Part shown: positions 3,152 through 44,556 of the stretch, one piece after another | How the letters are laid out: every line of letters begins with the position of its first letter | Position numbering within the stretch: the first letter of the stretch is position 1 | NCBI GenBank assembly: GCA_027056485.1 | Contig: JALUKQ010000167.1 | Location: 1-47,146 of the forward strand | Reading direction: 5' to 3' | From: Campylobacteraceae bacterium | GTDB taxonomy: Bacteria; Campylobacterota; Campylobacteria; Campylobacterales; Sulfurovaceae | DNA: 47,146 nt | Program-made: the position numbers and the translations under genes | Notes under the pieces: generated by a model | Database searches by the model: none | What the model saw: the letters and a program-made list of their open reading frames with translations, nothing else | What the model was told of the DNA's origin: nothing

Positions 3152-3829
3152 TTAGTTTAAGAGGAGTTGCTCAGATTGTTCTAAAAGCTTCTTAACATCT
3201 TTTACGTAGATATTTTTACGTTCATTTTTGATGACATTCTCAGCCTCTAACTCTTTTAGATGACGCTCGACCACATTTCTAACGGTTCCTAAGAGTTTAG
3301 CTATTTCTGTTTTTGAGAGATTTTGAAGTAGTTGATAGTAGTGGTCATCATTAGGATTCATGTTTTGAAGTAATAGTTTAGAGAGACGCTCAGAGGTAGA
3401 ATAGAGTGATAAATCTGATGCTAACTCCTCTGCATGACGCATCTGTGATGCAATATAAGGAAAAAAGTGTCGGTTAAACTGCTCATTGGTTCTTAACCAC
3501 TCCCGTACTTTTTCAATAGGAAGTTGAAGGACATCTGCTTTTTCTAAAACCTCATAAAGAACATCATGAGGTTTTCCATCAAGCAGAACTAAAGTGTCAA
3601 ACATATCTCCTGCACGGTAGACAAAAAGGGTTTGTTCTTTTGAGTTTATAAGATTTATTTGAAAACTTTTAATTTTGCCACTTAAAACAATATAAAAAAA
3701 TTTAGAGAGTTCATTATCAAGAAAAGGGGTCTCTTTCTTTTTAAATGAGACTATCTTTCCATACTGTAAAAACTGATCTTCAAAGCTTTGATCTAACTCT
3801 TTAAAAATCTCAATACCATAATGTTTCAT
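3152..3829 (-). CDS. Crp/Fnr-family transcription regulator
   Basis: 225 residues: an N-terminal cyclic-nucleotide-type beta-roll (about 20-130, with LSGKIKSFQINL and YRAGDMFDTLVLLDG), a dimer helix near 130-150, and a C-terminal winged helix (about 160-215) with recognition helix LSKTEIAKLLGTVRNVVERHLKELE. It has no Cys cluster of the Fnr 4Fe-4S type, and the cNMP-binding Arg-Ser motif is not evident, so the signal is unknown. Shine-Dalgarno AAAGGAC precedes the ATG. Lying directly upstream of the hsp20 block in the same direction, it could control it, but its own terminator and the separate hsp20 promoter leave that open. Confidence 0.85.
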   Translation of the reverse strand: MKHYGIEIFKELDQSFEDQFLQYGKIVSFKKKETPFLDNELSKFFYIVLSGKIKSFQINLINSKEQTLFVYRAGDMFDTLVLLDGKPHDVLYEVLEKADVLQLPIEKVREWLRTNEQFNRHFFPYIASQMRHAEELASDLSLYSTSERLSKLLLQNMNPNDDHYYQLLQNLSKTEIAKLLGTVRNVVERHLKELEAENVIKNERKNIYVKDVKKLLEQSEQLLLN

Positions 3830-5608: not shown

Positions 5609-6412
5609 ATGATACTAACTAAACCACTACTTTTAATATCAACACTTTTTGCATTAACCTCTACCATACAAGCAACTCCAACTGGAGAAGAGTTAGTAAA
5701 AGCAAACTGTGCCTCATGTCACTCACTCGGTGTTCCCACACCAGAACAGATACAATCATTTAAAGCACCAGCTATGGAAGCTGTACTTTTTCACGTTAAA
5801 CCTGCACACAATAATGATGATGCAAAAACAAAAGAGTTTATAGTTGATTATGTACAAAATCCTAAGATTAAAAAATCTGTTTGTGAATCAAATAAAGTTG
5901 CAAAATTCGGTGTTATGCCTTCACTTAAAGGAAAAGTTTCTCCTGAAGATTTATCTACCATTGCTGATTATCTTATAAAAACCTACCCTACACCAAAATT
6001 TGTTTCTCTTATTACAGAGATGCAAACCAATGGGAAAATGAACAGTTTAAAAAACTCTCCATTTTTAATGAATCAAGATAAACTACCCCACTTGACAAAG
6101 ATTTTAATGGAAAACTGGGAAAAAGCTTCACTAAACTTAACAGATGAGCAAAAAACTAAACTACTAGTAGTTAGAAAAGAGACTTTAACTGCTGTTAAGA
6201 AAATCAAAAAAGCTTTAAAACCTTTAGAAACAGAAGTTATAGAACTAACTGTTGATGAAGACACTACACTCAAGGATATTAAACCAAAAGTAGATGAAAT
6301 TGCTAGACTTAAAGCAGAAGCAAGCATGATTCAACTTAAATGTTTAAAAGATAGTGTGGCTATTTTAACAGAAGAGCAACTTGAACTTCTTTTACCATTT
6401 TGGGATGCCTAG
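5609..6412 (+). CDS. Periplasmic cytochrome c fused to a CpxP/Spy-like LTxxQ domain
   Basis: 267 residues with a signal peptide (cleavage near Gln-Ala22). Residues 25-127 form a mono-haem cytochrome c domain with CASCH at 34-38 and a likely axial Met103 in GVMPSLKG. Residues 130-267 are helical and carry two LTxEQ motifs (LTDEQ at 177-181, LTEEQ near 253), the mark of CpxP/Spy/ZraP-type periplasmic chaperone-sensors. Proteins of that fold often modulate a neighbouring envelope histidine kinase, and the kinase pair begins 9 bases downstream. The domain fusion suggests redox, haem or gas state is read out by the LTxxQ module. That role is inference; the haem motif and repeats are seen directly. 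Confidence 0.8.
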   Translation: MILTKPLLLISTLFALTSTIQATPTGEELVKANCASCHSLGVPTPEQIQSFKAPAMEAVLFHVKPAHNNDDAKTKEFIVDYVQNPKIKKSVCESNKVAKFGVMPSLKGKVSPEDLSTIADYLIKTYPTPKFVSLITEMQTNGKMNSLKNSPFLMNQDKLPHLTKILMENWEKASLNLTDEQKTKLLVVRKETLTAVKKIKKALKPLETEVIELTVDEDTTLKDIKPKVDEIARLKAEASMIQLKCLKDSVAILTEEQLELLLPFWDA

Positions 6413-6421
6413 GTTAGGTTC

Positions 6422-7090
6422 ATGGTACAACAAAATATCTTACTGCTTGAAGATGATGTTCAGCTCAGTGATACGGTTAAGCAGTTTTTAGAATATTCAG
6501 GATACACTATATATCCTGCATATGATGCTTCATCTGCAAAAGATTTACTCTATGAAAAGAACATAGACCTCATGCTTTTAGATATAAAAGTACCTCATCA
6601 AAATGGTTTTGACTTTTTACAAGAAGTTAGAGATAGTGGCAACTTTACTCCTGCTATTTTTATCACTTCACTTAATTCTGTCGATGACGTAACCAAAGGT
6701 TTTGACATAGGTTGTGATGACTATATACGAAAACCTTTTGCCCTCAAAGAGTTACTAGTCCGTATAGAAGCCATTTCAAAAAGAAATTTTGGAAGCCATG
6801 ATAATCAACTTGATTTAGGAAATGGTTATAGTTTTGATATAAAAGGACTTTTTTTAAGCCATGAAGATAAAAAAGTTCCACTCAAAACAAAAGAGGCTAA
6901 ACTCTTGGCACTATTTTTAAAAAATCCTAACGAACTTTTAACTTATGAAACTATATTTGAAATACTTTGGGAATATAACGAAACAGCAAGCCAAGGAAGT
7001 TTACGAGCTTACATTAACACCCTTCGCAATACTTTAGGGAAAAATAAAATAGAGACTATTAAACATATAGGTTATCGTTATGTTAAGTAG
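6422..7090 (+). CDS. OmpR-family response regulator
   Basis: 222 residues. Receiver domain 1-118 with acidic pair Glu10-Asp11-Asp12, phospho-acceptor Asp54 (LLDIKVP), Thr82 and Lys104 (RKPF); then a winged-helix DNA-binding domain (about 130-222) ending TIKHIGYRYVK. All receiver residues are intact. Its stop overlaps the kinase start by 11 bases, so the pair is translationally coupled. The sequence is close in style to Campylobacterota regulators such as ArsR of Helicobacter. The target genes probably include this operon, but no operator was identified. Confidence 0.92.
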   Translation: MVQQNILLLEDDVQLSDTVKQFLEYSGYTIYPAYDASSAKDLLYEKNIDLMLLDIKVPHQNGFDFLQEVRDSGNFTPAIFITSLNSVDDVTKGFDIGCDDYIRKPFALKELLVRIEAISKRNFGSHDNQLDLGNGYSFDIKGLFLSHEDKKVPLKTKEAKLLALFLKNPNELLTYETIFEILWEYNETASQGSLRAYINTLRNTLGKNKIETIKHIGYRYVK

Positions 7091-8240
7091 TGAGAAACGC
7101 TCCCTTTTTCGCTTTCTTTCCATCTATTTAAGCTCTACTTTATTACTTTTTCTCTTAGCTACATTTATCTTTTATGATTACCATAAACATGAAATTATTG
7201 ACATACAAAACTCTGAACTAGGTATAGAAGCAGAACATATAACTCAAAGACTAAGACAGCTAAATCAAACATTTACAAAAGAGTTAACTTACCCTTATCA
7301 AAAACCTTTTGAATCAGCTATTTACAACTTAGACAAAGAGTATATTTTTGGATCGTTTAAGCCTTCAAATATTTTATGGAATAAAGAGTACTATCAAGAT
7401 GAGAATAGACTTTTTCACATTCACCCTCTTTTCCCTTACTATTTGGGGGCATCACATCTTATAGTAAGTAAAAACATTAACCAAGACCCTATTAACAATT
7501 TAATAAAAATGTCTATTCTATTTTTATTTATTGCAGGTATTTTTTTTACCCTATTAGGGCTCTTTTTAGGTAAACTTTTCATTGCTCCTATGAAAGAGTC
7601 TATAGAAAAAATGAACAAATTTATAGAAGATACCACCCATGAATTTAACACACCTATTAGTACTATTTTGACAAATATAGAGTTGATAGACACGGTTTAT
7701 GACTGTGAAGGGAAACAGGAGTTACAACGTATAGAGATAGCATCTAAAACACTTAGTCGTCTTTATGAGGACTTAACCTATTTAAAACTAAACCATAACT
7801 ATCATAGGGAGATTAAGTCTATTAATATATCAAATCTTTTAAAAGATAGAGTTGAATATTTTAACACACTTATTGAGTCTAAAAAACTAAAAGTAACCCA
7901 ACATATTGACAAAGAGGTAGTTTTTGATATAGATAAAAATGATGCCATTCGTCTAATAGATAATATTTTATCAAATGCTATAAAATATAATAAAAAAGAG
8001 GGCGAAATAGACATTATATTAAATATGAAAAACCTTATAATTAAAAATTCTGGAATTGGGATAAAAAAAGAAGATATTAACCTTATTCAAAACCGTTTCA
8101 AACGTGCTAACTCAAGTGAAGGTGGTTTTGGAATTGGTCTAGATATTATCAGTCAAGTAGTAGAACGTTATGGTTTTAAATTTACCATAGACTCTGTCTA
8201 CAACAAAAGTACAAAGGTATATATTTTATGGAAAAAGTAA
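7080..8240 (+). CDS. Sensor histidine kinase, partner of the upstream response regulator
   Basis: 386 residues. Transmembrane helices near 13-30 and 138-162 bracket a periplasmic sensor domain of roughly 105 residues, without a recognised fold. The cytoplasmic part has a HisKA H-box (DTTHEFNTPIST, near 184), N-box (DNILSNAIKYN) and a G2 box (GGFGIGL). The G1 box reads NSGIG where most kinases have DxGxG; that Asp contacts the adenine of ATP, so the Asn may weaken binding. The small periplasmic domain is the natural contact site for the CpxP-like cytochrome encoded two genes upstream. The stop TAA shares its last A with the next ATG. Confidence 0.9.
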   Translation: MLSSEKRSLFRFLSIYLSSTLLLFLLATFIFYDYHKHEIIDIQNSELGIEAEHITQRLRQLNQTFTKELTYPYQKPFESAIYNLDKEYIFGSFKPSNILWNKEYYQDENRLFHIHPLFPYYLGASHLIVSKNINQDPINNLIKMSILFLFIAGIFFTLLGLFLGKLFIAPMKESIEKMNKFIEDTTHEFNTPISTILTNIELIDTVYDCEGKQELQRIEIASKTLSRLYEDLTYLKLNHNYHREIKSINISNLLKDRVEYFNTLIESKKLKVTQHIDKEVVFDIDKNDAIRLIDNILSNAIKYNKKEGEIDIILNMKNLIIKNSGIGIKKEDINLIQNRFKRANSSEGGFGIGLDIISQVVERYGFKFTIDSVYNKSTKVYILWKK

Positions 8241-8584
8241 TGATAAAAAGTTTATTAATAAGTACTTTTATTATAACAACAGCTACAGCAGAGGTTCCAG
8301 CTATTATACAAAATAACTGTCTAGCTTGTCATACAAAACAAAAAATTCCTAGTGAACTGATTTACAGACGATATTTACTTAAATACAGTACTAATACAAA
8401 GATAAAACAGAGACTTTTTAGCTATCTTAAAAAACCAAATAAGGAGAGCTCGATTATGCCTAAACAGTTCTTTTTAAAGTTTCCAGAAAAAGAGTCTTTA
8501 GATTTAAACGATACTATTTTAAACAAAAGTATAGATGCATATTTGGACTACTTTGATGTTAAGAAGAAGTTGATTTTACCATAG
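8240..8584 (+). CDS. Small exported c-type cytochrome
   Basis: 114 residues from the ATG overlapping the kinase stop (TAATG), which gives a compact signal peptide (MIKSLLISTFIITTATA). An in-frame ATG at 8228 is the alternative. One CLACH haem motif follows close behind the signal (residues 27-31), and a Met in SSIMPKQF may be the axial ligand. The protein is shorter than a normal class I cytochrome c and ends in a Lys-rich tail. As fourth gene of the sensor operon it may deliver electrons or haem status to the fused cytochrome, or be the reporter of the system. Its 3' end overlaps the convergent gene by 26 bases. Confidence 0.7.
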   Translation: MIKSLLISTFIITTATAEVPAIIQNNCLACHTKQKIPSELIYRRYLLKYSTNTKIKQRLFSYLKKPNKESSIMPKQFFLKFPEKESLDLNDTILNKSIDAYLDYFDVKKKLILP

Positions 8585-9056
8585 AGACTTCTAGATTATT
8601 CACTTCTATAAAATTAATATTTGTAATAATATTATCTTTTAGATGAATAATCGTTGCTTTTTTTTCTTCTCTATTTAACTCATTTTCATCATACAGTAGA
8701 GCAACTTTAAAATCAAACTCTTTTAACTTAGGTAGAACAAAAAAATTAACTAAAAATCTAGGAAGTGAACTAATATCTGAAATATACACCATATGATGAT
8801 TTATTAAATAATGATTCTCTTGTTTTTCTAAAAACTTTTGTATATCCGTTGAGATATCTTTTTCAAAAGATAATAACAGAGTAACCTCACCTTTTTTTGA
8901 AATCTCTACAGTTTTATTCTCTGAATCAACTAAAACTAAAGAGGGAAAACTCTCCCCTACTCTTAATTCAGCAGAGAGTAGAGTTAGTAAAAAGAGATGT
9001 ATAACTATTAATCTAATAAATATTTTACCTATATTATTCATTCGATATATTATCAC
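8559..9056 (-). CDS. Exported thioredoxin-fold protein of unknown function
   Basis: 165 residues: hydrophobic leader (FIRLIVIHLFLLTLLSA) followed by ELRVGESFPSLVLVDSENKTVEI, the usual opening of AhpC/TSA or thioredoxin-like domains. No CxxC or peroxidatic Cys is present, in fact no Cys at all, so it is not a standard reductase; YtfJ-like proteins are a possible comparison. The start is GTG with AAGGG 5 bases ahead; an ATG 15 bases further in (9041) lacks a ribosome site. The first Fur-box-like site (9078-9092) lies 22 bases upstream, so the gene may be iron-regulated together with the divergent porin. Confidence 0.6.
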   Translation of the reverse strand: MIIYRMNNIGKIFIRLIVIHLFLLTLLSAELRVGESFPSLVLVDSENKTVEISKKGEVTLLLSFEKDISTDIQKFLEKQENHYLINHHMVYISDISSLPRFLVNFFVLPKLKEFDFKVALLYDENELNREEKKATIIHLKDNIITNINFIEVNNLEVSMVKSTSS

Positions 9057-18092: not shown

Positions 18093-19778
18093 CTAAACAG
18101 ATAAAAACTCCACTCCATCTTTTGAACCAATCAAGAGAAAACTTCTCAGCTTAGGAATACTTTTTACTTTATCTAGCTCTTTATACTCCTCAACCTGTTT
18201 GAGTCCATCTTTTTTTATAGTCTCATAACTATCTTTATCTTTTTTCCACTTTAACTCAAACAGATAATTATTTGGCACTTTCTCATCGCGACCAATAAGT
18301 AAAATATCAGGATATTTTCTATCAAATTCAGGCTGAGAGTCTATAAAGTAGAAGTCTGCAAAGCTCAAAAGTGCCAAGGTAATCACTTGAAAGTGCTTCT
18401 CTGTAAATCCTTGGTGGTCACGATTTGAAAGCGTTTTTATTGCCTCATTTAGTTGTTTATTGAATGGGTCAAGATTTCCTATGGCTAAGTCTCTTAAAAT
18501 AACTTTGATGTCTTGGTTCATTTGGAGATTGTTTCTCTTTTTTAACTCAATAGCAAAGTAATTAAAATAGAGTATTTTGATGACATAGTTAGGAATTTGA
18601 AAATAGAACTCCCCTCCAAAACTCTCCTCTTTAATAGTAATAAACCCCATAGAGTAGATAAGCGTAATAAAATCATCTCTACTAAACTCTTGGTTTAGGT
18701 CGTATCTGTCTTTTACCTCTCCTACTATTTGATTGTTTTCTATGAGCTCTTCTAAAATTTTATAGTTTCTGTCACTGTCACCTATGTTAAAAAGTTTCAT
18801 AATGGCTTTGTAGTCCGAGGCTACATTACTGTCTAGCATTTTTATGGGCATAGTACAATTATCATAATTGTATTGAGAGATAAAATAATTCACCAAAGTT
18901 GCATTATAAACTCTCTCATTTGCTTCTATATTAAATAAGTAACCGTTGTACCATTTTTGTATTTTTTTTAATAACTCTTCTTTCTCTATCTCTTGACACT
19001 TTTTAAAGATAGAGTTTTCTAAAGAGTAGTTTACCTCCTCCCCCGTAAATCCTGCCATGGCATTAAACTTTTTATTGTTTGAGATATTGGAGACAATATT
19101 AAACCCAGAACTTAGACTATCTAGCGTAATAGGAGTTACCCCTGTAATGAACATCTTTTGAACTACACCACTTTGGGTTGCACCTTTTAAGACTTCGTAA
19201 AAGCTTCTTACAAATCCACCCTTACCGACTATCCCTAAAAAGTCTTTCATGTTGTAGGCTAAAATGGCGTTGGCGAACTGGTCATACTCATCTATGAGCA
19301 GATATATTTTATCATTTTTAGCCACTTCAAAAAAGTATTTTATCAAACCTGTTGGGCTTTTAATATCATCTAATTTAGAAAGATATTCACCGTATCCGTA
19401 CTCACTAAAATATCTATTAATTGCAAATTTAATATTGTCTCTAAACCCATCATAAATAGACTCAACTCCTCCATCTATATTAATTCCAGAAAACTCAAAA
19501 AACAAAATACGAAAGCTACTTTTTAAGGGTGTTGGAGTGTTTTTTATAAAAGTCTCTTGAAATATATCATCAAATTCATGAGCAGAGTTCTCATCATAAT
19601 AGTATTGAAGAGTAGAGAGAAAAAGGGACTTTCCAAATCGTCTTGGGCGTAAAAAGACAACAAAACTCTCATTAAGATTTTCTAATTTTTCTATATATTG
19701 GGTTTTATCAATATAAAAGTAGTCGTTGTTTATTTTTATTTTTCTAAAATTACTTTCACCATAAATTATCTTTTTCAT
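18093..19778 (-). CDS. AAA-ATPase-like protein with PD-(D/E)XK nuclease domain
   Basis: 561 residues. N-terminal AAA-ATPase_like domain (about 5-280) opening with the family phrase YFYIDKTQYIEKL and the P-loop RPRRFGKS, Walker B near YLLIDEYD. C-terminal PDDEXK_9-type nuclease domain with PDILLIGRDE and ELKWKK (about 500-540). The family is large, often mobile and multi-copy (abundant in Bacteroidota); its role is not settled. It stands alone. Its 5' end has a TATAAT box (19805-19810) and a perfect palindrome covering the ribosome site, suggesting tight control. Confidence 0.85.
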   Translation of the reverse strand: MKKIIYGESNFRKIKINNDYFYIDKTQYIEKLENLNESFVVFLRPRRFGKSLFLSTLQYYYDENSAHEFDDIFQETFIKNTPTPLKSSFRILFFEFSGINIDGGVESIYDGFRDNIKFAINRYFSEYGYGEYLSKLDDIKSPTGLIKYFFEVAKNDKIYLLIDEYDQFANAILAYNMKDFLGIVGKGGFVRSFYEVLKGATQSGVVQKMFITGVTPITLDSLSSGFNIVSNISNNKKFNAMAGFTGEEVNYSLENSIFKKCQEIEKEELLKKIQKWYNGYLFNIEANERVYNATLVNYFISQYNYDNCTMPIKMLDSNVASDYKAIMKLFNIGDSDRNYKILEELIENNQIVGEVKDRYDLNQEFSRDDFITLIYSMGFITIKEESFGGEFYFQIPNYVIKILYFNYFAIELKKRNNLQMNQDIKVILRDLAIGNLDPFNKQLNEAIKTLSNRDHQGFTEKHFQVITLALLSFADFYFIDSQPEFDRKYPDILLIGRDEKVPNNYLFELKWKKDKDSYETIKKDGLKQVEEYKELDKVKSIPKLRSFLLIGSKDGVEFLSV

Positions 19779-19784
19779 ACTTGC

Positions 19785-19801
19785 CCTTCAAATCTTGAAG
19801 G
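19785..19801 (-). promoter_or_regulatory. Palindrome over the ribosome site of the AAA-ATPase/nuclease gene
   Basis: CCTTCAA-GAT-TTGAAGG (minus strand), perfect 7-bp arms. It begins 3 bases after the -10 box TATAAT (19805-19810) and its right arm contains the Shine-Dalgarno GAAGG(G) that serves the ATG at 19778. It can act as a DNA operator at the transcription start, or as an mRNA hairpin hiding the ribosome site. Confidence 0.65.
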
Positions 19802-19877
19802 TATATTATAGCATTATCTATTAAAATCAAGGTCTAACGTCAAAACAAACATCAACCACCAAAACATTGGAATCTAC

Positions 19878-19919
19878 GCGACTACGTCGCATAACCTCCC
19901 CACCGATAGGTAGGGATAC
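19878..19919. repeat. Structured repeat, copy B
   Basis: Hairpin GCGAC-TAC-GTCGC followed by ATAACCTCCCC and the 18-base core ACCGATAGGTAGGGATAC, which is identical to copy A (17744-17761). The first stem differs completely in sequence from copy A yet still pairs, and the spacer ATA-R-CCTCC is shared. In this copy the core pairs better (CCC-C-ACC / GGT-A-GGG around GATA). Confidence 0.7.
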
Positions 19920-20190
19920 ACCGTGTTTCTCGCTGTTTAAGAGATAGACTCTATGAAAAATTACAAAAACAGTAAAATTTTATAGAGCCGTAAAGTGTGT
20001 TTTTGTGGGAAAAAGAACCCAAAAATGCGTGAAAATGCCAAAAAAGTGCCTATATTTCGGCATCTTAATGAAAATATTGTCAAAATACCCAAGTTACGCT
20101 ATACTTCAAAAGGTACATTTACGAACTATTTGTACCAAGTTCCATAAAATCTTACTTTGTTAAGTCATTTTTAAATGGAACTTTCTCTCA
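19920..20190. other. Hairpin-rich non-coding stretch
   Basis: No gene is visible between the ATPase start (19778) and the IS element (20247). After repeat B come several inverted repeats: ATAGA-C-TCTAT near 19945, TGGG/CCCA near 20010, TGCC/GGCA near 20050, GGTACA/TGTACC (20112-20117, 20131-20136), and immediately after it AAGTTCCAT/ATGGAACTT (20137-20145, 20175-20183; 9 bp, perfect). The density of stems suggests a structured RNA or a DNA recognition region. Confidence 0.45.
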
Positions 20191-20246
20191 AAGTACACAA
20201 ACCGATATAGGCTTTAGAGTTATATTTATACTTTTTAACTAAACCA

Positions 20247-20785
20247 CTATGGACTCAAAGTCCATAGGTTTCTCTTGGACTGAAAGTCCAATCTATTCCA
20301 ACATCATATTCCCCACATCTTTATTTGAAGGAGTTCGATGATGTTCAAGATATTCTTCCACCATTTCTTGACTAACATTCCCTGTACTCCAAACTCCATA
20401 ACCTATTGCCCAAAAATGCTTTCCCCAATATTGTTTTGATAACTCTTTAAATTCTATTTGTAACTTTCTTGAACTTCGCCCTTTCAATCTTTTCACTATA
20501 TCACTCACTGATTTACTTAGTGCATATTCTATATGCATATGTATGTGGTCTTTACTCACTACTCCACTTAATATTCTTATGTCTTCTGCATCACATACTT
20601 GTATTATTATCTCTCGACATCGCTTTTGTATTTCCCCTTTCAATACTTTATAGCGATATTTTGTTACCCAAACTATATGAACTTGTAATTGACTTATTGT
20701 ATGGTTTCCATTTCTCATTTCTTATTCTAACTCTTAACACATTTGTAGAAGCTAAAGCCTTGCACTGAAAGTGCATAGTTTTAAC
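20247..20785 (-). mobile_element. IS200-type element with end hairpins
   Basis: A single tnpA gene bracketed by subterminal hairpins, as in the IS200/IS605 family: CTATGGACT-CAA-AGTCCATAG (20247-20267, 9 bp) and TTGGACT-GAA-AGTCCAA (20275-20291) beyond the 3' end, and TGCACT-GAA-AGTGCA (20761-20775) before the 5' end. All three share ACT-(C/G)AA-AGT. No tnpB and no target duplication, as expected for this single-strand transposition mechanism. The exact ends are not resolved; the limits given are approximate. Confidence 0.8.
20293..20718 (-). CDS. tnpA: IS200/IS605-family Y1 transposase TnpA
   Basis: 141-residue HUH-type tyrosine transposase that cuts and joins single-stranded DNA. Seen: the family opening VHIVWVTKYRYKVL, the HUH motif His58-Ile-His60 in SKDHIHMH, YWGKHFWAIGYGVWSTG, and the catalytic Tyr123 in VEEYLEHH. 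Length is normal and the frame is intact, so the element may still be active. Encoded leftward between the end hairpins. Confidence 0.92.
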   Translation of the reverse strand: MRNGNHTISQLQVHIVWVTKYRYKVLKGEIQKRCREIIIQVCDAEDIRILSGVVSKDHIHMHIEYALSKSVSDIVKRLKGRSSRKLQIEFKELSKQYWGKHFWAIGYGVWSTGNVSQEMVEEYLEHHRTPSNKDVGNMMLE

Positions 20786-20823
20786 TAGCGTGAGTGGAAC
20801 AATAAATTTCATTCAAATATAAC

Positions 20824-20858
20824 TATCGTTTTGATATTATAATAATCTAAAAACGATA
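20824..20858 (+). promoter_or_regulatory. Promoter framed by an inverted repeat (ATPase_2/DUF234 gene)
   Basis: Perfect 9-bp arms TATCGTTTT (20824-20832) and AAAACGATA (20850-20858) enclose a 17-base spacer that contains the -10 box TATAAT (20838-20843). This is the layout of an autoregulatory operator. The ATG follows at 20871. Confidence 0.65.
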
Positions 20859-20870
20859 AAAGGCTATAAG

Positions 20871-22244
20871 ATGTTTGTCAATCGCCAAAAAGAGCTAACA
20901 CTACTAGAAGAGGAGTACACTAACAGTGACTTTAGATTTACAGTACTCTATGGACGACTACGAGTAGGAAAGACCACACTACTTAAAGAGTATATCTCTT
21001 CTAAACCTTACATCTACTTTTTAGTAACACTTGAAGCACTACCTACTGTCATTGAACGTTTTCAAAATCTGGTGGCTGATTTTTTAGAAGATGAATTTCT
21101 TAGAGAGATTGAGTTAAAGAGTTTTGAACAGATTTTCTCCTATTTGGCTAAACAGCAGCTCTCTAAAAAAGTTGTGGTGGTTATTGATGAGTTTCAATAT
21201 CTTGGAAAGCTTGACAAATCTATCCCCTCTCAGTTTCAATATATTGTCGATGAGATACTCAAAAATAAAAATATTCATTTGGTGCTTTGTGGCTCTATTA
21301 TCTCTATGATGTATGAGCAGACACTATCTTACAATTCACCTCTTTATGGACGGCGAACCAGTAGTATTAAACTTGATGCGTTGAGTTTTGAGTATTTGAG
21401 TGCTTTTTTCCCTAGAAAAAATGAGATTGAGCTTATTGAACTCTATGCTGTTTTATATGGTGTTCCTAAATATCTAGAGCTTTTTAAAGAGAGTGGTGAT
21501 ATTTTTGAAGCCATAGAGAAAAATATTTTAGATAAAAACGCTTTTCTCTATGAAGAGCCTAGATTTATTTTGCAAAATGAGGTCAATGAACCGATGACCT
21601 ACTTTACCATCTTGGAGACCATTGCCAATGGAGAGCATAAGTTAGGAAATATTGCAGGAAAATTAAATAAAAATGTTCAAAATATCACTTCGTTTATTAG
21701 TAAACTAATTGAGTTAGAGGTTGTCTATAAAGAGGTTCCTATTACGGAAAAACTTCCTAACAAAAGTAAAAAGGGACTCTATTTTATTAAAGATAATTTT
21801 TTTCGGTTTTGGTTCTCTTATGTTTTACCCTACAGAAGTCAATTAGAGTTAGGAAATACCAACTATGCTCTAGTCAAAATAAAAGAGAATTTCTCAGGTT
21901 TTGTGGCAAAGGTCTATGAAGATTTATCGGTAGAATATACACTAAAAAATTATCCTCTTTTAAAAGCTGGTCGTTGGTGGAGCAAAGATGAAGAGATAGA
22001 TGTGGTTGGTGTAGGTGAAGCGTTTATTTTAGTGGGTGAGTGCAAATACTCAAACAAAAAAGTAGGCGTAGATATACTTCAAGAGTTAGAGCGAAAAAGT
22101 AAAAAGATAGAGTTAAAGCTACCTATAAAACACTATCTTCTCTTTTCTAAAAGTGGATTTACCAAAGATTTATTGGAAATTAAAAAAGATAGAGATGATG
22201 TCGTTTTAATAGATGGTTTTAATTCTAAAAACACAAGCCCTTAA
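20871..22244 (+). CDS. ATPase_2-type ATPase with DUF234 nuclease-like domain
   Basis: 457 residues. STAND-like ATPase domain (about 1-230) with P-loop GRLRVGKT (28-35) and Walker B VVVVIDEFQYL, a winged-helix part around 250-300 (ETIANGEHKLGNIAGKLNKNVQNITSFISKL), and a C-terminal DUF234 domain with a PD-(D/E)XK-like pattern (EEIDVVGVG ... LVGECKYSNKKV). Widespread in archaea and bacteria as a single-gene unit of unknown role, likely DNA-linked. It starts 85 bases past the IS element and overlaps the next, convergent gene by 4 bases. Confidence 0.85.
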   Translation: MFVNRQKELTLLEEEYTNSDFRFTVLYGRLRVGKTTLLKEYISSKPYIYFLVTLEALPTVIERFQNLVADFLEDEFLREIELKSFEQIFSYLAKQQLSKKVVVVIDEFQYLGKLDKSIPSQFQYIVDEILKNKNIHLVLCGSIISMMYEQTLSYNSPLYGRRTSSIKLDALSFEYLSAFFPRKNEIELIELYAVLYGVPKYLELFKESGDIFEAIEKNILDKNAFLYEEPRFILQNEVNEPMTYFTILETIANGEHKLGNIAGKLNKNVQNITSFISKLIELEVVYKEVPITEKLPNKSKKGLYFIKDNFFRFWFSYVLPYRSQLELGNTNYALVKIKENFSGFVAKVYEDLSVEYTLKNYPLLKAGRWWSKDEEIDVVGVGEAFILVGECKYSNKKVGVDILQELERKSKKIELKLPIKHYLLFSKSGFTKDLLEIKKDRDDVVLIDGFNSKNTSP

Positions 22245-23461
22245 TATAAAAATCCAAACAACCAAAGAGGAATCTTATTACCAAATCCTACCTCTATATC
22301 ATCAGAAGCCACAAAAGAGTTTGGCATATCTTTTATCTGTTTAAAACTCTTATTTTTCCCACCCACTTCAAAGGTATAGCTGTTGTCCACTAAAAAATCT
22401 CCCTTTTTTGCTACATAAATATCTTCATTGATAAAACGATTTTGTAGAGAAAAATAGTTTTTTATTTGATTCACAAAAAAAGCCTCTCTTGCACTTCCTA
22501 TATCTACTTTTTTCGTTAAAGCAGTAGATATATTGGTATTTTGCATAAAAAGTTTTTCAGGTTTGCTCATAATTTTGTAGCCCTTTTCAGGCGTTCGGAT
22601 ACTATTAATAATTTTTGCCTCTTCTAAATAGTTCAAATACTCATAGAGCTTTGGTCGTGAAATATCTGTAGCTTTAGCAAGGTCAGTAATATTTGGAATA
22701 AAGGGAACACTCACAGCCAAAAGATAGAGCAGTTTTTTGAGTTTGCGTATCTGTTGCATCTCTATTTTATTGATGTGTGGTAAGTCAGACTCTAAAATAA
22801 GATTAATAATCTGGATAATTCGTAGATGATAAGAGCCTTTGTCCTCTAAAACAAAAGGGTAACACCCAAACTCTAAATACTCTTTAAAAAATTTAAGAGG
22901 CTTAATCTTTTGGCTAATCTCACTGGCTATCTCAAAATGATTTTCAATTATCTCTTCTAGTGAATGACTCTCAAAAGAGACCTCTTCTTTTAGAAAAAGA
23001 TACTCTCTAAAGGATAGATTTTCAAGATGATAGACAATGGTTCGCCGAGAGAGGTCAACATTTTGTTTATTGATTTGTAAAATAGAAGAGCCTGAAATCA
23101 CCACTCTTAAAGAGAGAAAATCATAAATACTCTTAATATGTCTAGCCCAATCGCTGTATTTATGTACTTCATCAATAAAAAGTACCTCTCCACCATAAGA
23201 AGAAAATTCACTAGCAAACTCATAAAGAGAGATAGATTGAAAATAGGGATTATCTAAAGAGATATAGAGAGCCTTGTCACTCTGATAATAATGCTCTTTA
23301 AGATACTGCAACATCATAGTTGTTTTTCCTAAACCTCTCTGTCCTAAGATGGCAAGAGATTGTAGATTCCAATTAATCTCATTGTAAAGGTATCGTTTTT
23401 TTTCTAAAGATATTTTATCGAGTAGTTGATTTTGTTCGCTAAATAGATTTTGGAAGTTCAT
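22241..23461 (-). CDS. AAA_14 ATPase with DUF4143 domain
   Basis: 406 residues. N-terminal AAA_14 domain with P-loop GQRGLGKT (40-47) and Walker B EVLFIDEVHKY, a winged-helix segment (LAKATDISRPKLYEYLNYLEEAKII) and a C-terminal DUF4143 domain with a nuclease-like FLVDNSYTFEVGGKNK (Asp, Glu-x-Gly-Gly-Lys). Third ATPase-nuclease protein in a row from a third family. Function unknown. The promoter side carries a near-perfect palindrome and a second half-site (23477-23532). Confidence 0.85.
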   Translation of the reverse strand: MNFQNLFSEQNQLLDKISLEKKRYLYNEINWNLQSLAILGQRGLGKTTMMLQYLKEHYYQSDKALYISLDNPYFQSISLYEFASEFSSYGGEVLFIDEVHKYSDWARHIKSIYDFLSLRVVISGSSILQINKQNVDLSRRTIVYHLENLSFREYLFLKEEVSFESHSLEEIIENHFEIASEISQKIKPLKFFKEYLEFGCYPFVLEDKGSYHLRIIQIINLILESDLPHINKIEMQQIRKLKKLLYLLAVSVPFIPNITDLAKATDISRPKLYEYLNYLEEAKIINSIRTPEKGYKIMSKPEKLFMQNTNISTALTKKVDIGSAREAFFVNQIKNYFSLQNRFINEDIYVAKKGDFLVDNSYTFEVGGKNKSFKQIKDMPNSFVASDDIEVGFGNKIPLWLFGFLY

Positions 23462-41607: not shown

Positions 41608-43548
41608 TTAGTTTTTACTTGGTATCTGTATGGTAAAAATTGCTCCATCTTTCCCATTGTGCACAAAAATTTTACCATACATACTATCTTCTACAATAAG
41701 TTTTAAAATATAGAGTCCTAAACCTGTACCATTCTCTTTATCTTTAGTTGTAAAATATGGGTCAAATATCTTTTTTACATTTTTCTTATCAATACCTCCA
41801 CCATTATCTTCAACTGATATAAATACATTATTTTTCTCTTGATAAGCATGAATCATAATTTTTCCTTGATTAACATGCTCTAGATTTTTTTGACAAGCGT
41901 AAATAGCATTATTAAGAAGAATCAAAAGTGATTGAATAAGTTCAGAACTATATCCTATAATCATAATCTCTTCTCTCTCATTATATGTTATCTCAATATT
42001 TTTATGACTTGAAATAACAGTTAAATCTTCAGTTTGTCTAATAATGTCTCTCAAGTAAAAAGCTTCACTTTTTTTATTTTTTGAGAAAAAATCTGTAAAA
42101 TCATTAATTGTTTTAGATAAGTAAGCTGTAGTATTCTCTATCTGATTGAGGTGTTTGTCAAGTAACTCATCGTTAAGAATTTTTTTTCTATTATCAACAT
42201 CAATATTGATAACCACACCATTAATAGATGATAATGGCTGTCTCCACTGGTGAGCTATTAATGCGATCATCTCTCCCATAGAGGCTAATTTACTCTGAAT
42301 AATTAAAATCTTTTCCTGTTCTTGTTTCTCTCTATTTATTTTAACCGTATAGTAAATTACTAGTAAGGTAAAAACATATAAAGTTGGTGTCCAAAAATAA
42401 CCAATTGAGATGTAAACTCCATTTAAATATGAATAAATCAAACTTAAAATACTGATAACACCAGCAATAAGAAAAAGTATGTAAATTTGAATATATAATC
42501 TCTTCATAAATAATATCATAATGATTATAGAGAAGAGTAAAGATAATAATATATTAATCCTTTTATATTTTTCAGGTTGACTTAGTATAGTATTACTCAA
42601 AATACTATCTGCCACTAAAGCGTGTATCATACTGTTTGAAATAGATTTACCATCTGAGGTAGTATATGTAGGATTTAAGCCAACAACCGAAGAGCCAATA
42701 ATGACAATTTTACCTTGAATCTCCTCCTTAGAAACTTCTCCATTTAAAATATCAATAGCAGAAAAGACTTTAGGAGTTTTATTGAAAGAATCTATCAAAA
42801 CACTATTATTTGTAGTATCTATATTTATATCTCTATCAAAACTTAAAAGTGTAGCTAAAGCAAAAGAAGGAAATATATGCTCCTCATACTCCATAAAAAG
42901 AGGTACTCTTCTAAGCCTTCCATCACTATCTTCCCAAGCATTGATAAAACCAAAATTATCGACACTACTTTGTATGGTTTTATAATTACAAAGAAGTGCT
43001 GGTGCAGTAAACTCTGTTTTTATTTTAGAAAATATATTATCTTGGTAGGAAAGCTCTTTACAGTGAGAAGATGTATAAGAACTATTATAAAAAGAGATAG
43101 AAAGAGTAGAACCTGATTTTATTATACTATCAGTCAAAAATTTATCATTATCTTTAAGCTCATTAGGAAAATCATCTAGTTGAAGCTCCAGATTAAAGAA
43201 CTTTTTATAAAAATCTTTAATTGCTATAGGAGAGACCCTATCTCTCTCTGCAAAAAGAATATTTATACCTATTGCAGAGGGGTTTAACTCATATACACTA
43301 TCAATAAGTTTAGCATCAAGTACCCTAGACCAAGGCCATTGACCAAGCTGCTGCAGACTTTTTTCATCAATATCTACAAACACCGAATAGGAAGCACTTT
43401 TTTTCTCATCTTTTTGATTAAAAAACATACTTGAAATATCATAAAATTTATAGTCAACTCTTTTTGTATACTCACTACTATAAAAAAAGAGATGCATAAA
43501 TATTAATAATACAATAGCAAAAGTATATTTAATAAAATTTAAGCTCAT
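41608..43548 (-). CDS. CHASE2-domain sensor histidine kinase
   Basis: 646 residues. One N-terminal helix, a periplasmic CHASE2 domain (about 35-320: VDIDEKSLQQLGQWPWSR, GINILFAERD, IVIIGSSVVGLNP), three further helices (about 330-400), then HisKA with the phylum-typical H-box IAHQWRQPLSSING and a HATPase with N-box LLNNAIYAC, G1 DNGGGI and G2 GTGLGL. No receiver is encoded next to it. Last gene of the wzc-fecR-ompA-CHASE2 operon; its ATG directly abuts the ompA stop (TAGATG). FecR and CHASE2 neighbours are a recurrent envelope-sensing set. Confidence 0.9.
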   Translation of the reverse strand: MSLNFIKYTFAIVLLIFMHLFFYSSEYTKRVDYKFYDISSMFFNQKDEKKSASYSVFVDIDEKSLQQLGQWPWSRVLDAKLIDSVYELNPSAIGINILFAERDRVSPIAIKDFYKKFFNLELQLDDFPNELKDNDKFLTDSIIKSGSTLSISFYNSSYTSSHCKELSYQDNIFSKIKTEFTAPALLCNYKTIQSSVDNFGFINAWEDSDGRLRRVPLFMEYEEHIFPSFALATLLSFDRDINIDTTNNSVLIDSFNKTPKVFSAIDILNGEVSKEEIQGKIVIIGSSVVGLNPTYTTSDGKSISNSMIHALVADSILSNTILSQPEKYKRINILLSLLFSIIIMILFMKRLYIQIYILFLIAGVISILSLIYSYLNGVYISIGYFWTPTLYVFTLLVIYYTVKINREKQEQEKILIIQSKLASMGEMIALIAHQWRQPLSSINGVVINIDVDNRKKILNDELLDKHLNQIENTTAYLSKTINDFTDFFSKNKKSEAFYLRDIIRQTEDLTVISSHKNIEITYNEREEIMIIGYSSELIQSLLILLNNAIYACQKNLEHVNQGKIMIHAYQEKNNVFISVEDNGGGIDKKNVKKIFDPYFTTKDKENGTGLGLYILKLIVEDSMYGKIFVHNGKDGAIFTIQIPSKN

Positions 43549-44133
43549 CTATTTTATAAATATCTCAACGTTTCTATTTTTTGCTTCAGCTACATTATCT
43601 GCCGTTTTAACCTCTAAATCCTCTTCTCCATAGCCTTTAGTTCTCATAGAGACTACTTTAACACCTCTCTTTTTTATCATAGATTCTATTAATTTTGCTC
43701 GTTTTAGTGAAACTTTAATATTGAGTTTATTAGAACCTGTAGTATCAGTATGACCTATAATATCAACTACACAGGGTGAACGTTTTCCTATCATCTCAAT
43801 AGCCTTATCTAGAGTAGCCTTAGACTCTTGTGTCAACTCTTTAGAGTTTGGCTTAAAATAGACCATATACTTTACAGGCTTAGGAGGTGTCGCAGCTAAA
43901 ACTTTAGAGAAACGACTCTCAATCTCTTTTTTGGACATGCTTTTAACTTTACTTGCTGCTGATTCTTTATCTTTTAAATCAACATAGTTTCCTACTTTAT
44001 CAAGTTTGCTACTTCCTTTATCTGTAGAGACTATAACAGCATTTTCAACTTTTCCATTATCTAGCAAAACAACTGTAGTTTGAGAACAACCTATAAAAAA
44101 TAAACTCATCATAAAAATAATTTGAATTTTCAT
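43549..44133 (-). CDS. OmpA-family peptidoglycan-binding lipoprotein
   Basis: 194 residues. Lipoprotein signal with Cys16 (LFFIGC); residues 85-194 are an OmpA_C domain (VYFKPNSKELTQES, DIIGHTDTTGSNKLNIKVSLKRAKLIES, GYGEED, NRNVEIFIK) with the Asp and Arg that hold meso-DAP peptidoglycan. The N-terminal 65 residues are unique. Sits between and abuts the FecR-domain and CHASE2 genes. Confidence 0.88.
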   Translation of the reverse strand: MKIQIIFMMSLFFIGCSQTTVVLLDNGKVENAVIVSTDKGSSKLDKVGNYVDLKDKESAASKVKSMSKKEIESRFSKVLAATPPKPVKYMVYFKPNSKELTQESKATLDKAIEMIGKRSPCVVDIIGHTDTTGSNKLNIKVSLKRAKLIESMIKKRGVKVVSMRTKGYGEEDLEVKTADNVAEAKNRNVEIFIK

Positions 44134-44556
44134 CTACTTCACCTCCACAGCAAATTTGGTACCACGAATACCGATAATACCTTCAGGTATACGGAACTTA
44201 ACTGATTTAGGAGCTAGTTTTCCAACTCTTCCTGAACTAAAAACAGCTTTACCTTTTTTTAAAAATAGATCAACATCAAACTCTTTTTTTTCTGGTTCTA
44301 CTTTGAATTGATTTATAACAAAAATAGCTTTCTCATCTAATGACAAAACTGTTCCATCATCAAAAGTAATACCTATGGAGCTTTTTGACTTAGTCATAAT
44401 AATATCACCATTCTCTAAACTAAACCCAGGCTTTATCTTAACCACCTTTCCATCTCGTTTAACCTCTACTTCACCTGTTGTATTTTTAACTATTCCAACA
44501 CTTCCGAAGAGCAGAGTGTTCATAATCAACAATCCTAATATAACCATTTTTTTCAT
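44134..44556 (-). CDS. Exported FecR-domain protein
   Basis: 140 residues: signal peptide (MKKMVILGLLIMNTLLFGS), then a FecR fold (GEVEVKRDGKVVKIKPGFSLENGDIIMTKSKSSIGITFDDGTVLSLDEKAIFVI ... GIIGIRGTKFAVEV). Here it is not next to an ECF sigma factor; rather it joins an OmpA-like lipoprotein and a CHASE2 kinase, a set found in other bacteria as an envelope-sensing cassette. Start 30 bases after the Wzc-like stop. Confidence 0.88.
   Translation of the reverse strand: MKKMVILGLLIMNTLLFGSVGIVKNTTGEVEVKRDGKVVKIKPGFSLENGDIIMTKSKSSIGITFDDGTVLSLDEKAIFVINQFKVEPEKKEFDVDLFLKKGKAVFSSGRVGKLAPKSVKFRIPEGIIGIRGTKFAVEVK

Follow-up and report, generated by a model that had tools for sequence, protein, structure and literature searches.

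The operon and its cytochrome-Spy fusion protein

The DNA analysed here, referred to as the window, is a stretch of 47,146 nucleotides (contig JALUKQ010000167.1) from a relative of Sulfurovum. Its list of open reading frames (ORFs) revealed an operon of four genes, encoding in order a mono-haem cytochrome c fused to a helical LTxxQ domain (named CytSpy here), an OmpR-type response regulator, a histidine kinase and a tiny cytochrome c. The CytSpy and regulator genes are 9 bases apart, the regulator and kinase genes overlap by 11 bases, and the kinase and tiny cytochrome genes overlap by 13 bases. A first-pass annotation had reported these four ORFs and their spacing, the haem motifs CASCH and CLACH, and two LTxEQ motifs. 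All were located, the last two as LTDEQ at residue 177 and LTEEQ at residue 253, so the observation is confirmed; its interpretation is partly supported, as discussed below. The genes form a two-component system with unusual cytochrome partners, which is conserved well beyond the window. The features are as follows, with lengths in amino acids (aa).

5609..6412, plus strand: CytSpy gene, mono-haem cytochrome c and Spy/CpxP/ZraP-like helical domain, 267 aa (ORF, Pfam, 25-row alignment, AlphaFold2)
5708..5722, plus strand: CytSpy haem-binding motif CASCH, residues 34-38 (C34, C37 and H38 invariant in 25 rows)
5882..5884, plus strand: CytSpy spare cysteine C92, cytochrome half (invariant in 25 rows)
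5915..5917, plus strand: CytSpy M103, presumed distal haem ligand (invariant in 25 rows; role taken from cytochromes c generally)
6056..6391, plus strand: CytSpy Spy/CpxP/ZraP-like helical domain, about residues 150-261 (AlphaFold2 helices 162-171, 179-215, 221-252 and 255-261; Foldseek)
6137..6151, plus strand: CytSpy first LTxxQ motif, LTDEQ, residues 177-181 (L177 and Q181 invariant)
6341..6343, plus strand: CytSpy spare cysteine C245, helical half (invariant in 25 fusions, and also in 19 Spy-region rows that include 5 solo proteins)
6365..6379, plus strand: CytSpy second LTxxQ motif, LTEEQ, residues 253-257 (L253 and Q257 invariant)
6422..7090, plus strand: OmpR-type response regulator, 222 aa (Pfam Response_reg 1.4e-22, Trans_reg_C 7.6e-16; D54 and K104 present)
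7080..8240, plus strand: membrane histidine kinase, 386 aa (Pfam HisKA and HATPase_c; H187 in HEFNTP)
7179..7499, plus strand: kinase periplasmic part between two presumed membrane helices (AlphaFold2 N-terminal model; membrane limits presumed)
8046..8060, plus strand: kinase G1 box NSGIG, residues 323-327 (Asn where Asp is usual)
8228..8584, plus strand: tiny mono-haem cytochrome c, 118 aa (ORF; conserved family)
8318..8332, plus strand: tiny cytochrome haem-binding motif CLACH, residues 31-35 (C31, C34 and H35 invariant in 8 rows)
8456..8458, plus strand: tiny cytochrome M77 in S-I-M-P, presumed distal ligand (invariant in 8 rows)

CytSpy begins with a signal-peptide-like segment, as judged by eye. 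Its N-terminal half is a class I cytochrome c, with CxxCH, M103 at the distal place and scores above the Pfam cut-offs for Cytochrome_CBB3 (30.7 against 27 bits) and Cytochrom_C (25.4 against 21.3). The LTXXQ match of the window protein fell under its cut-off (19.3 against 24.3 bits, E value 0.0019; 21.3 bits for the tail alone), and some relatives matched more strongly, with best E values of 5.6e-6 for LTXXQ and 2e-7 for Metal_resist. At E 0.1, Cytochrome_CBB3 was found in all 25 fusion homologues, LTXXQ in 13 and Metal_resist in 11. The CxxCH motif, C92, M103, H161, C245 and the Leu and Gln of both LTxxQ motifs were invariant across the 25 aligned fusions, while the Thr varied. Because the haem motif and the Leu and Gln are invariant, and LTXXQ and Metal_resist recur at E 0.1, the likeness of the tail to LTXXQ is more than chance. 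The fusion of a cytochrome to an LTxxQ protein, as first annotated, is therefore borne out. Exactly four cysteines follow residue 20 in 45 of 49 distinct fusion sequences, and the two spare ones, one per half, could form a bond between the halves or act as a thiol switch. The 37 named relatives of CytSpy come nearly all from Sulfurovum or other metagenome genomes of Campylobacterota; one is from Flavobacteriales and one is labelled just 'bacterium'.

In the AlphaFold2 model of CytSpy a linker connects the cytochrome part to a long helical hairpin (mean predicted local distance difference test score, pLDDT, 81.4; residues 150-160 below 50). The predicted template-modelling (TM) score was 0.53, and this low value means that the mutual arrangement of the two halves is not predicted. 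Foldseek matched the tail to ZraP (3lay_A, probability 1.00, TM score to target 0.82, root-mean-square deviation 1.8 over 76 columns, E 1.4, rank 4 by E), CnrX (3zg1_D, probability 0.85) and CpxP (3itf_A, probability 0.63). These matches lay at E 1.4 to 4, mixed with unrelated helical proteins of which two ranked first, and none reached E 0.001. A profile of the tail searched against the sequences of solved structures gave 35 hits at E 10, of which none was Spy, CpxP or ZraP. We read the predicted fold of the tail as that of a member of the Spy/CpxP/ZraP/CnrX superfamily, closer to ZraP and CnrX than to CpxP. The original assignment to the CpxP/Spy type appears to hold for the superfamily and not for closeness to CpxP itself. 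Seven solo Spy-like proteins (L065-L071) have ends rich in Met and Cys (for example MKCxxGKCG), for which metal binding is possible; none lies beside this kinase in the fetched stretches.

The regulator and kinase constitute an OmpR-type two-component system, with the receiver Asp (D54), a winged helix, a HisKA domain containing H187 and an ATPase domain. The N-terminal part of the kinase was modelled with a mean pLDDT of 88.4 as a helix (3-63), five strands (78-132) and a second helix (136-186). Against the sequences of solved structures this part gave three unrelated hits and no solved relative. The kinase sequence contains no CxxCH, and none of the four window proteins matched DUF3365 at E 1. 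The tiny cytochrome scored below every Pfam and NCBIfam cut-off (Cytochrome_CBB3 13.5 against 27 bits), and its CxxCH and Met were invariant in 8 aligned rows. SoxX, SorB and other cytochrome labels were rejected for scores far under the NCBIfam cut-offs.

Conserved core, second partners and probable repeated fusion

Profiles of the kinase N-terminus, the small cytochrome, the cytochrome half and the Spy half were used to score the ORFs of fetched loci. The kinase N-terminal profile matched 166 of 175 genomes of the Sulfurovum-type family. The match strengths split into a high lineage, to which the window belongs (73 of the 175 genomes at E 6.2e-53 or better), and a low, sister lineage, with the division in fetched loci set at E 1e-38. 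Kinases were made distinct by sequence, and L024, L029 and L031 were dropped as double entries from cut contigs. The G1 box position that is Asn in the window was Asn in 6 of 90 high-lineage entries and Asp in 51, the pattern being unmatched in 33. The small-cytochrome profile matched 159 of the 175 family genomes and, at E 1e-8, 96 of 199 genomes of the order. At E 1e-6 it matched 51 of 249 genomes drawn from the phylum, and every listed genome of that draw belonged to the same order. CytSpy was rarer. The search matched 147 of the 175 family genomes, many by one half only, and the fusion was counted in 43, two of them with pieces at contig ends. Among the matches listed from 298 order genomes, full-length fusions outside the family came from two genomes of one other family (G213 twice, and G379).

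The pairing of kinase and small cytochrome was highly consistent. A small cytochrome lay within 6.5 kilobases (kb) of 72 of 77 high-lineage family kinases; four of the other five loci end at a contig edge beside the kinase, and L257 lacks it. In the sister lineage the count was 24 of 25, with L251 counted through the small cytochrome of a neighbouring high-lineage kinase. At the order level the two were adjacent in 27 of 28 new loci (L200-L227), the remaining one, L206, being at a contig edge. Among 106 pairs of both lineages, the two genes overlapped by 13 bases in 49, by 7 in 42 and by 16 in 5. Ten pairs had other values, including L239, where the genes are 3177 bases apart. A small CxxCH gene directly followed 98 of the 106 kinases, compared with 5 of 39 kinase-like ORFs of other types from these loci; in those five controls the gene was the solo cytochrome heading this same cluster. 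By contrast with this pairing, the order CytSpy, regulator, kinase, small cytochrome occurred in only 6 loci (the window, L036, L038, L060, L188/L061, and L232, which is cut after the kinase), and we rejected it as a conserved unit. The conserved core is the regulator, the kinase and the tiny cytochrome. The conservation of gene order asked for in the first-pass annotation holds for these three genes and not for the full four.

Further cytochrome or Spy genes often accompany the core. In the sister lineage, 20 of 25 loci had a second CxxCH gene of 95-129 aa within 1.1 kb after the small cytochrome; of the five without one, L220 has only 187 bases left. One such protein was tested and is a cytochrome c553 (PDB 1dvh, E 2e-13). 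In the high lineage, a solo cytochrome, a CytSpy fusion or a solo Spy-like gene lay within 6.5 kb of 36 of the 77 family kinases, all such counts being lower bounds because many contigs end inside that distance. A solo cytochrome alone was near 19 kinases (two of these without a small cytochrome), a fusion near 15 (one also with a solo cytochrome, one without a small cytochrome) and a solo Spy-like gene near 2. The fusion lies 17-59 bases downstream of the small cytochrome in L170, L263, L178, L183 and L131, and in the opposite orientation in L175, L177, L179 and L262. After merging a duplicate (L114 = L177) and near copies, 44 distinct fusion loci remained, and in 17 of them CytSpy was within 4.5 kb of the kinase set or its small cytochrome. 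The fusion and a high-lineage kinase co-occurred in 30 of the 43 fusion genomes (P 1.9e-5 over 175 genomes, descent not corrected for).

Two further kinds of gene were seen at these clusters. Several family loci have, upstream of the regulator, a thioredoxin-like gene whose WCxPC motif was spotted by eye. In several low-lineage loci, proteins of about 104-120 aa with Cys and without CxxCH (L150:9248-9559 and cluster 27) lie between the small cytochrome and the c553-like gene; one tested protein of this type had no Pfam match.

The phylogeny suggested that the same two parts were joined more than once. The cytochrome tree (76 rows, 107 columns, many forks unresolved) placed 41 fusions together with one solo row, the broken copy L168, in a main fusion clade with support 95/87. 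Fusions L060 and L188 and the reversed protein L072 fell apart from it, within a clade of mostly solo cytochromes (80/89). Fusion L279 had a long branch and an unsure position. In a quick tree of the Spy part, L060, L188 and L279 grouped with solo Spy proteins (Shimodaira-Hasegawa-like approximate likelihood ratio test support 92), L060 and L188 being long-branched, and L072 stood alone. In L061, moreover, the position that a solo cytochrome takes in L120, L123, L124, L129 and L131 is filled by a fusion. The reversed protein (L072:8161-9069, 302 aa), with the Spy-like domain first and the cytochrome second, is from the window's own genome. The same stretch encodes an RND-size protein (RND, resistance-nodulation-division; 1021 aa), another regulator and a protein with nine CxxCH motifs and MtrC/F-like domains.

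Proposed redox input to the kinase

The overlap of their genes implies that the kinase and small cytochrome are probably made together. The small cytochrome would most likely dock on the small periplasmic domain of the kinase, with its long helix and five strands, and the oxidation state of its haem would alter kinase output. The invariant CxxCH and Met of both cytochromes fit electron transfer. The small cytochrome may swap electrons with a second periplasmic cytochrome, namely the c553-like protein in the sister lineage and the solo cytochrome or CytSpy in the window's lineage. The Spy-like tail of CytSpy would probably provide a second input, metal or misfolded protein, by docking or through its spare cysteine. 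The regulator might then control the exporter and metal-related genes often encoded alongside. We propose an envelope-stress two-component system in which the kinase senses periplasmic redox through a dedicated cytochrome, with the tail adding an input of metal or protein damage, and give this reading a probability of about 0.45. A wider version, possible but doubtful, is that in many Campylobacterales the oxidation state of the cytochrome c pool reaches the kinase by way of a mono-haem cytochrome of its own, encoded by an overlapping gene, and that the Sulfurovum group joined a Spy/ZraP-like domain to a cytochrome more than once. The resulting single protein would signal electron state together with metal or protein damage.

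The almost one-to-one pairing of kinase and cytochrome in many relatives makes this kinase a concrete candidate, open to experiment, for a sensor fed by the periplasmic electron chain. The cytochrome-Spy fusions suggest that envelope stress and electron flow are connected. If true, the proposal would add a new way of periplasmic redox sensing: haem proteins may inform these cells about the condition of their outer compartment. According to a 2019 review, an oxygen-responsive regulator of Campylobacter jejuni had yet to be identified, and what signal its RacS kinase senses was not known (PMC6682613).

Several observations weigh against the proposal. No second cytochrome or Spy gene was found within 6.5 kb in 41 of the 77 family loci. 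Of the 44 distinct fusion loci, 27 lie apart from the kinase set, 11 of these having less than 4.5 kb on one side. Thirteen of the 43 fusion genomes gave no high-lineage kinase hit, one of which (G087) has a small cytochrome at a contig edge (L181). Inside the largest genus, co-occurrence of fusion and kinase (23/34) was not significant (P 0.13, descent again not corrected for). The inner forks that place L060, L188 and L072 in the cytochrome tree are not strongly supported (83 to 90 and 85 to 98). The neighbouring genes, described below, are exporters and metal-related genes, not respiratory ones. The idea that CytSpy is dedicated to this kinase was rejected on the 27 separate loci and the 13 genomes. 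In the earlier interpretation a haem-containing protein tuned the kinase. A haem input remains plausible, but the steady partner is the tiny cytochrome (72/77) and not the fusion (linked in 17/44).

The separation of CytSpy from the kinase would also be expected if the cytochromes were outputs of the system and not sensors, that is, electron carriers or repair factors made together with the system that controls them. The variable position of the fusion, which may be upstream, downstream or divergent, agrees with this, as does the cytochrome tree, on which the label 'fusion near kinase' changes 11 times, against 12.3 with shuffled labels. Against this, the small-cytochrome and kinase genes still overlap in both lineages and across many genera, as would be expected of a stoichiometric partner more than of a target, and we consider outputs unlikely.

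Neighbouring genes within 7 kb were assigned by blastp against at most three representatives, although several low-lineage order loci hold just 1.5 kb on each side. Near the 77 high-lineage family kinases we found an RND permease in 17 cases, an RND adaptor in 20, an outer membrane channel in 21, a DUF2202 protein in 23, a TonB-dependent receptor in 9 and a MacAB-like ATP-binding cassette permease in 9. FeoB was near 3, including that of the window. Ten high-lineage kinases from the order level had RND genes in 5 cases and DUF2202 in 4. In the low lineage, RND genes were near 2 of 10 family loci and 0 of 15 order loci, and DUF2202 near 1 of the 10 family loci. One TonB receptor was tested; it scored best as a copper receptor and remained below the cut-off (188.8 against 472.45). 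DUF2202 proteins occur for example in L120, L129 and L135, and also beside the orphan fusion of L039; by name, DUF2202 was not found in the literature among the matches listed.

Such a neighbourhood could belong to a metal-stress system in which the tail binds metal as CnrX and ZraP do and the kinase drives efflux, the haem part being an anchor, a metal-sensitive target or an electron carrier and no sensor. The RND, TonB receptor, DUF2202 and FeoB genes near the kinases favour this explanation. So do the tail fold nearest to ZraP and CnrX, the Metal_resist matches in 11 of 25 fusions, the invariant H161 and C245 of the helical half, and the Met- and Cys-rich ends of the seven solo relatives. 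However, no Spy part was found within 6.5 kb of 60 of the 77 lineage kinases, whereas 72 of the 77 have the small cytochrome. A nearby RND permease, tested as a fragment, stayed below both cut-offs, with 388.8 bits (cut-off 1250) for the multidrug type and a lower 239.0 bits (cut-off 701.45) for CusA/CzcA. We regard a system of this kind as somewhat unlikely.

The first-pass annotation had also suggested that the kinase could read nitric oxide (NO) or carbon monoxide (CO). Haem of CytSpy or of the small cytochrome would then bind the gas, and the kinase would answer nitrosative stress. A clade of orphan fusions (L051, L053, L054, L062 and L186) is accompanied by genes for a Crp/Fnr-type regulator, a globin, a weakly FmdE-like protein (below cut-off) and an HPP membrane protein. 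The Pfam assignments were made for L054, and those of the other four loci follow from similarity to it. Judged from these genes, a nitrosative-stress setting is possible for this clade. Haem-c Cache domains fused to signalling proteins have been reported as NO-binding (PMC12889525). On the other hand, both cytochromes have an invariant Met in the distal position, which would give six-coordinate haem and makes gas sensing less likely. Relatives of the orphan-clade globin were found near 0 of 17 kinase-linked fusions (within 5 kb) and 0 of 87 lineage kinases (within 7 kb), and those of its Crp/Fnr gene accompanied none of the 17 fusions and 2 of the 87 kinases. We consider a gas sensor very improbable. 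The window has a Crp-family gene of its own (3152-3829), too dissimilar to be captured in the search for Crp/Fnr relatives.

Relation to known systems and other genes of the window

The CpxP-CpxA-CpxR system of Escherichia coli likewise has an OmpR-type regulator, a membrane kinase and a periplasmic LTxxQ protein that could tune it. Here, by contrast, the LTxxQ protein is joined to a haem cytochrome, and the kinase gene overlaps that of another cytochrome. Membership of CpxPAR was rejected on the NCBIfam scores (CpxR 89.9 against 341 bits, CpxA 53.7 against 486 bits). ZraP-ZraSR and CnrXYH-CnrCBA share with our system the nearest predicted folds of the tail, and RND permeases lie within 7 kb of 17 of the 77 kinases; unlike theirs, the tail here is joined to a cytochrome. 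CnrX works with an extracytoplasmic function sigma factor. BaeSR, Spy and MdtABC also bring together a two-component system, a Spy-like protein and an RND exporter, but the kinase is only distantly similar to BaeS (68.4 bits against a cut-off of 603), and BaeSR is not known to include haem proteins.

DUF3365/sCache_heme sensors (PMC12889525) and Geobacter GSU0582 and GSU0935 (PMC3460858) are reported to use covalently attached haem c for signalling in the periplasm. In these, the haem is within the sensor domain of the receptor itself, whereas here it is on separate cytochromes and the kinase lacks CxxCH. Among the matches listed from open-licence papers, neither a fusion of cytochrome and Spy nor a kinase gene overlapping a cytochrome gene was found, in agreement with the earlier remark that no described system of this layout is known.

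Three other parts of the window may be mentioned. A secreted-looking protein of 165 aa is encoded at 8559-9056 on the minus strand, overlapping the small cytochrome gene tail to tail; it matched no Pfam family above cut-off. At 18093-23461 an IS200-type transposase is flanked by three distinct AAA-ATPase proteins (AAA-ATPase_like/PDDEXK_9, ATPase_2/DUF234 and AAA_14). At 41608-44556, on the minus strand, OmpA-family and FecR-domain proteins adjoin a CHASE2 histidine kinase.

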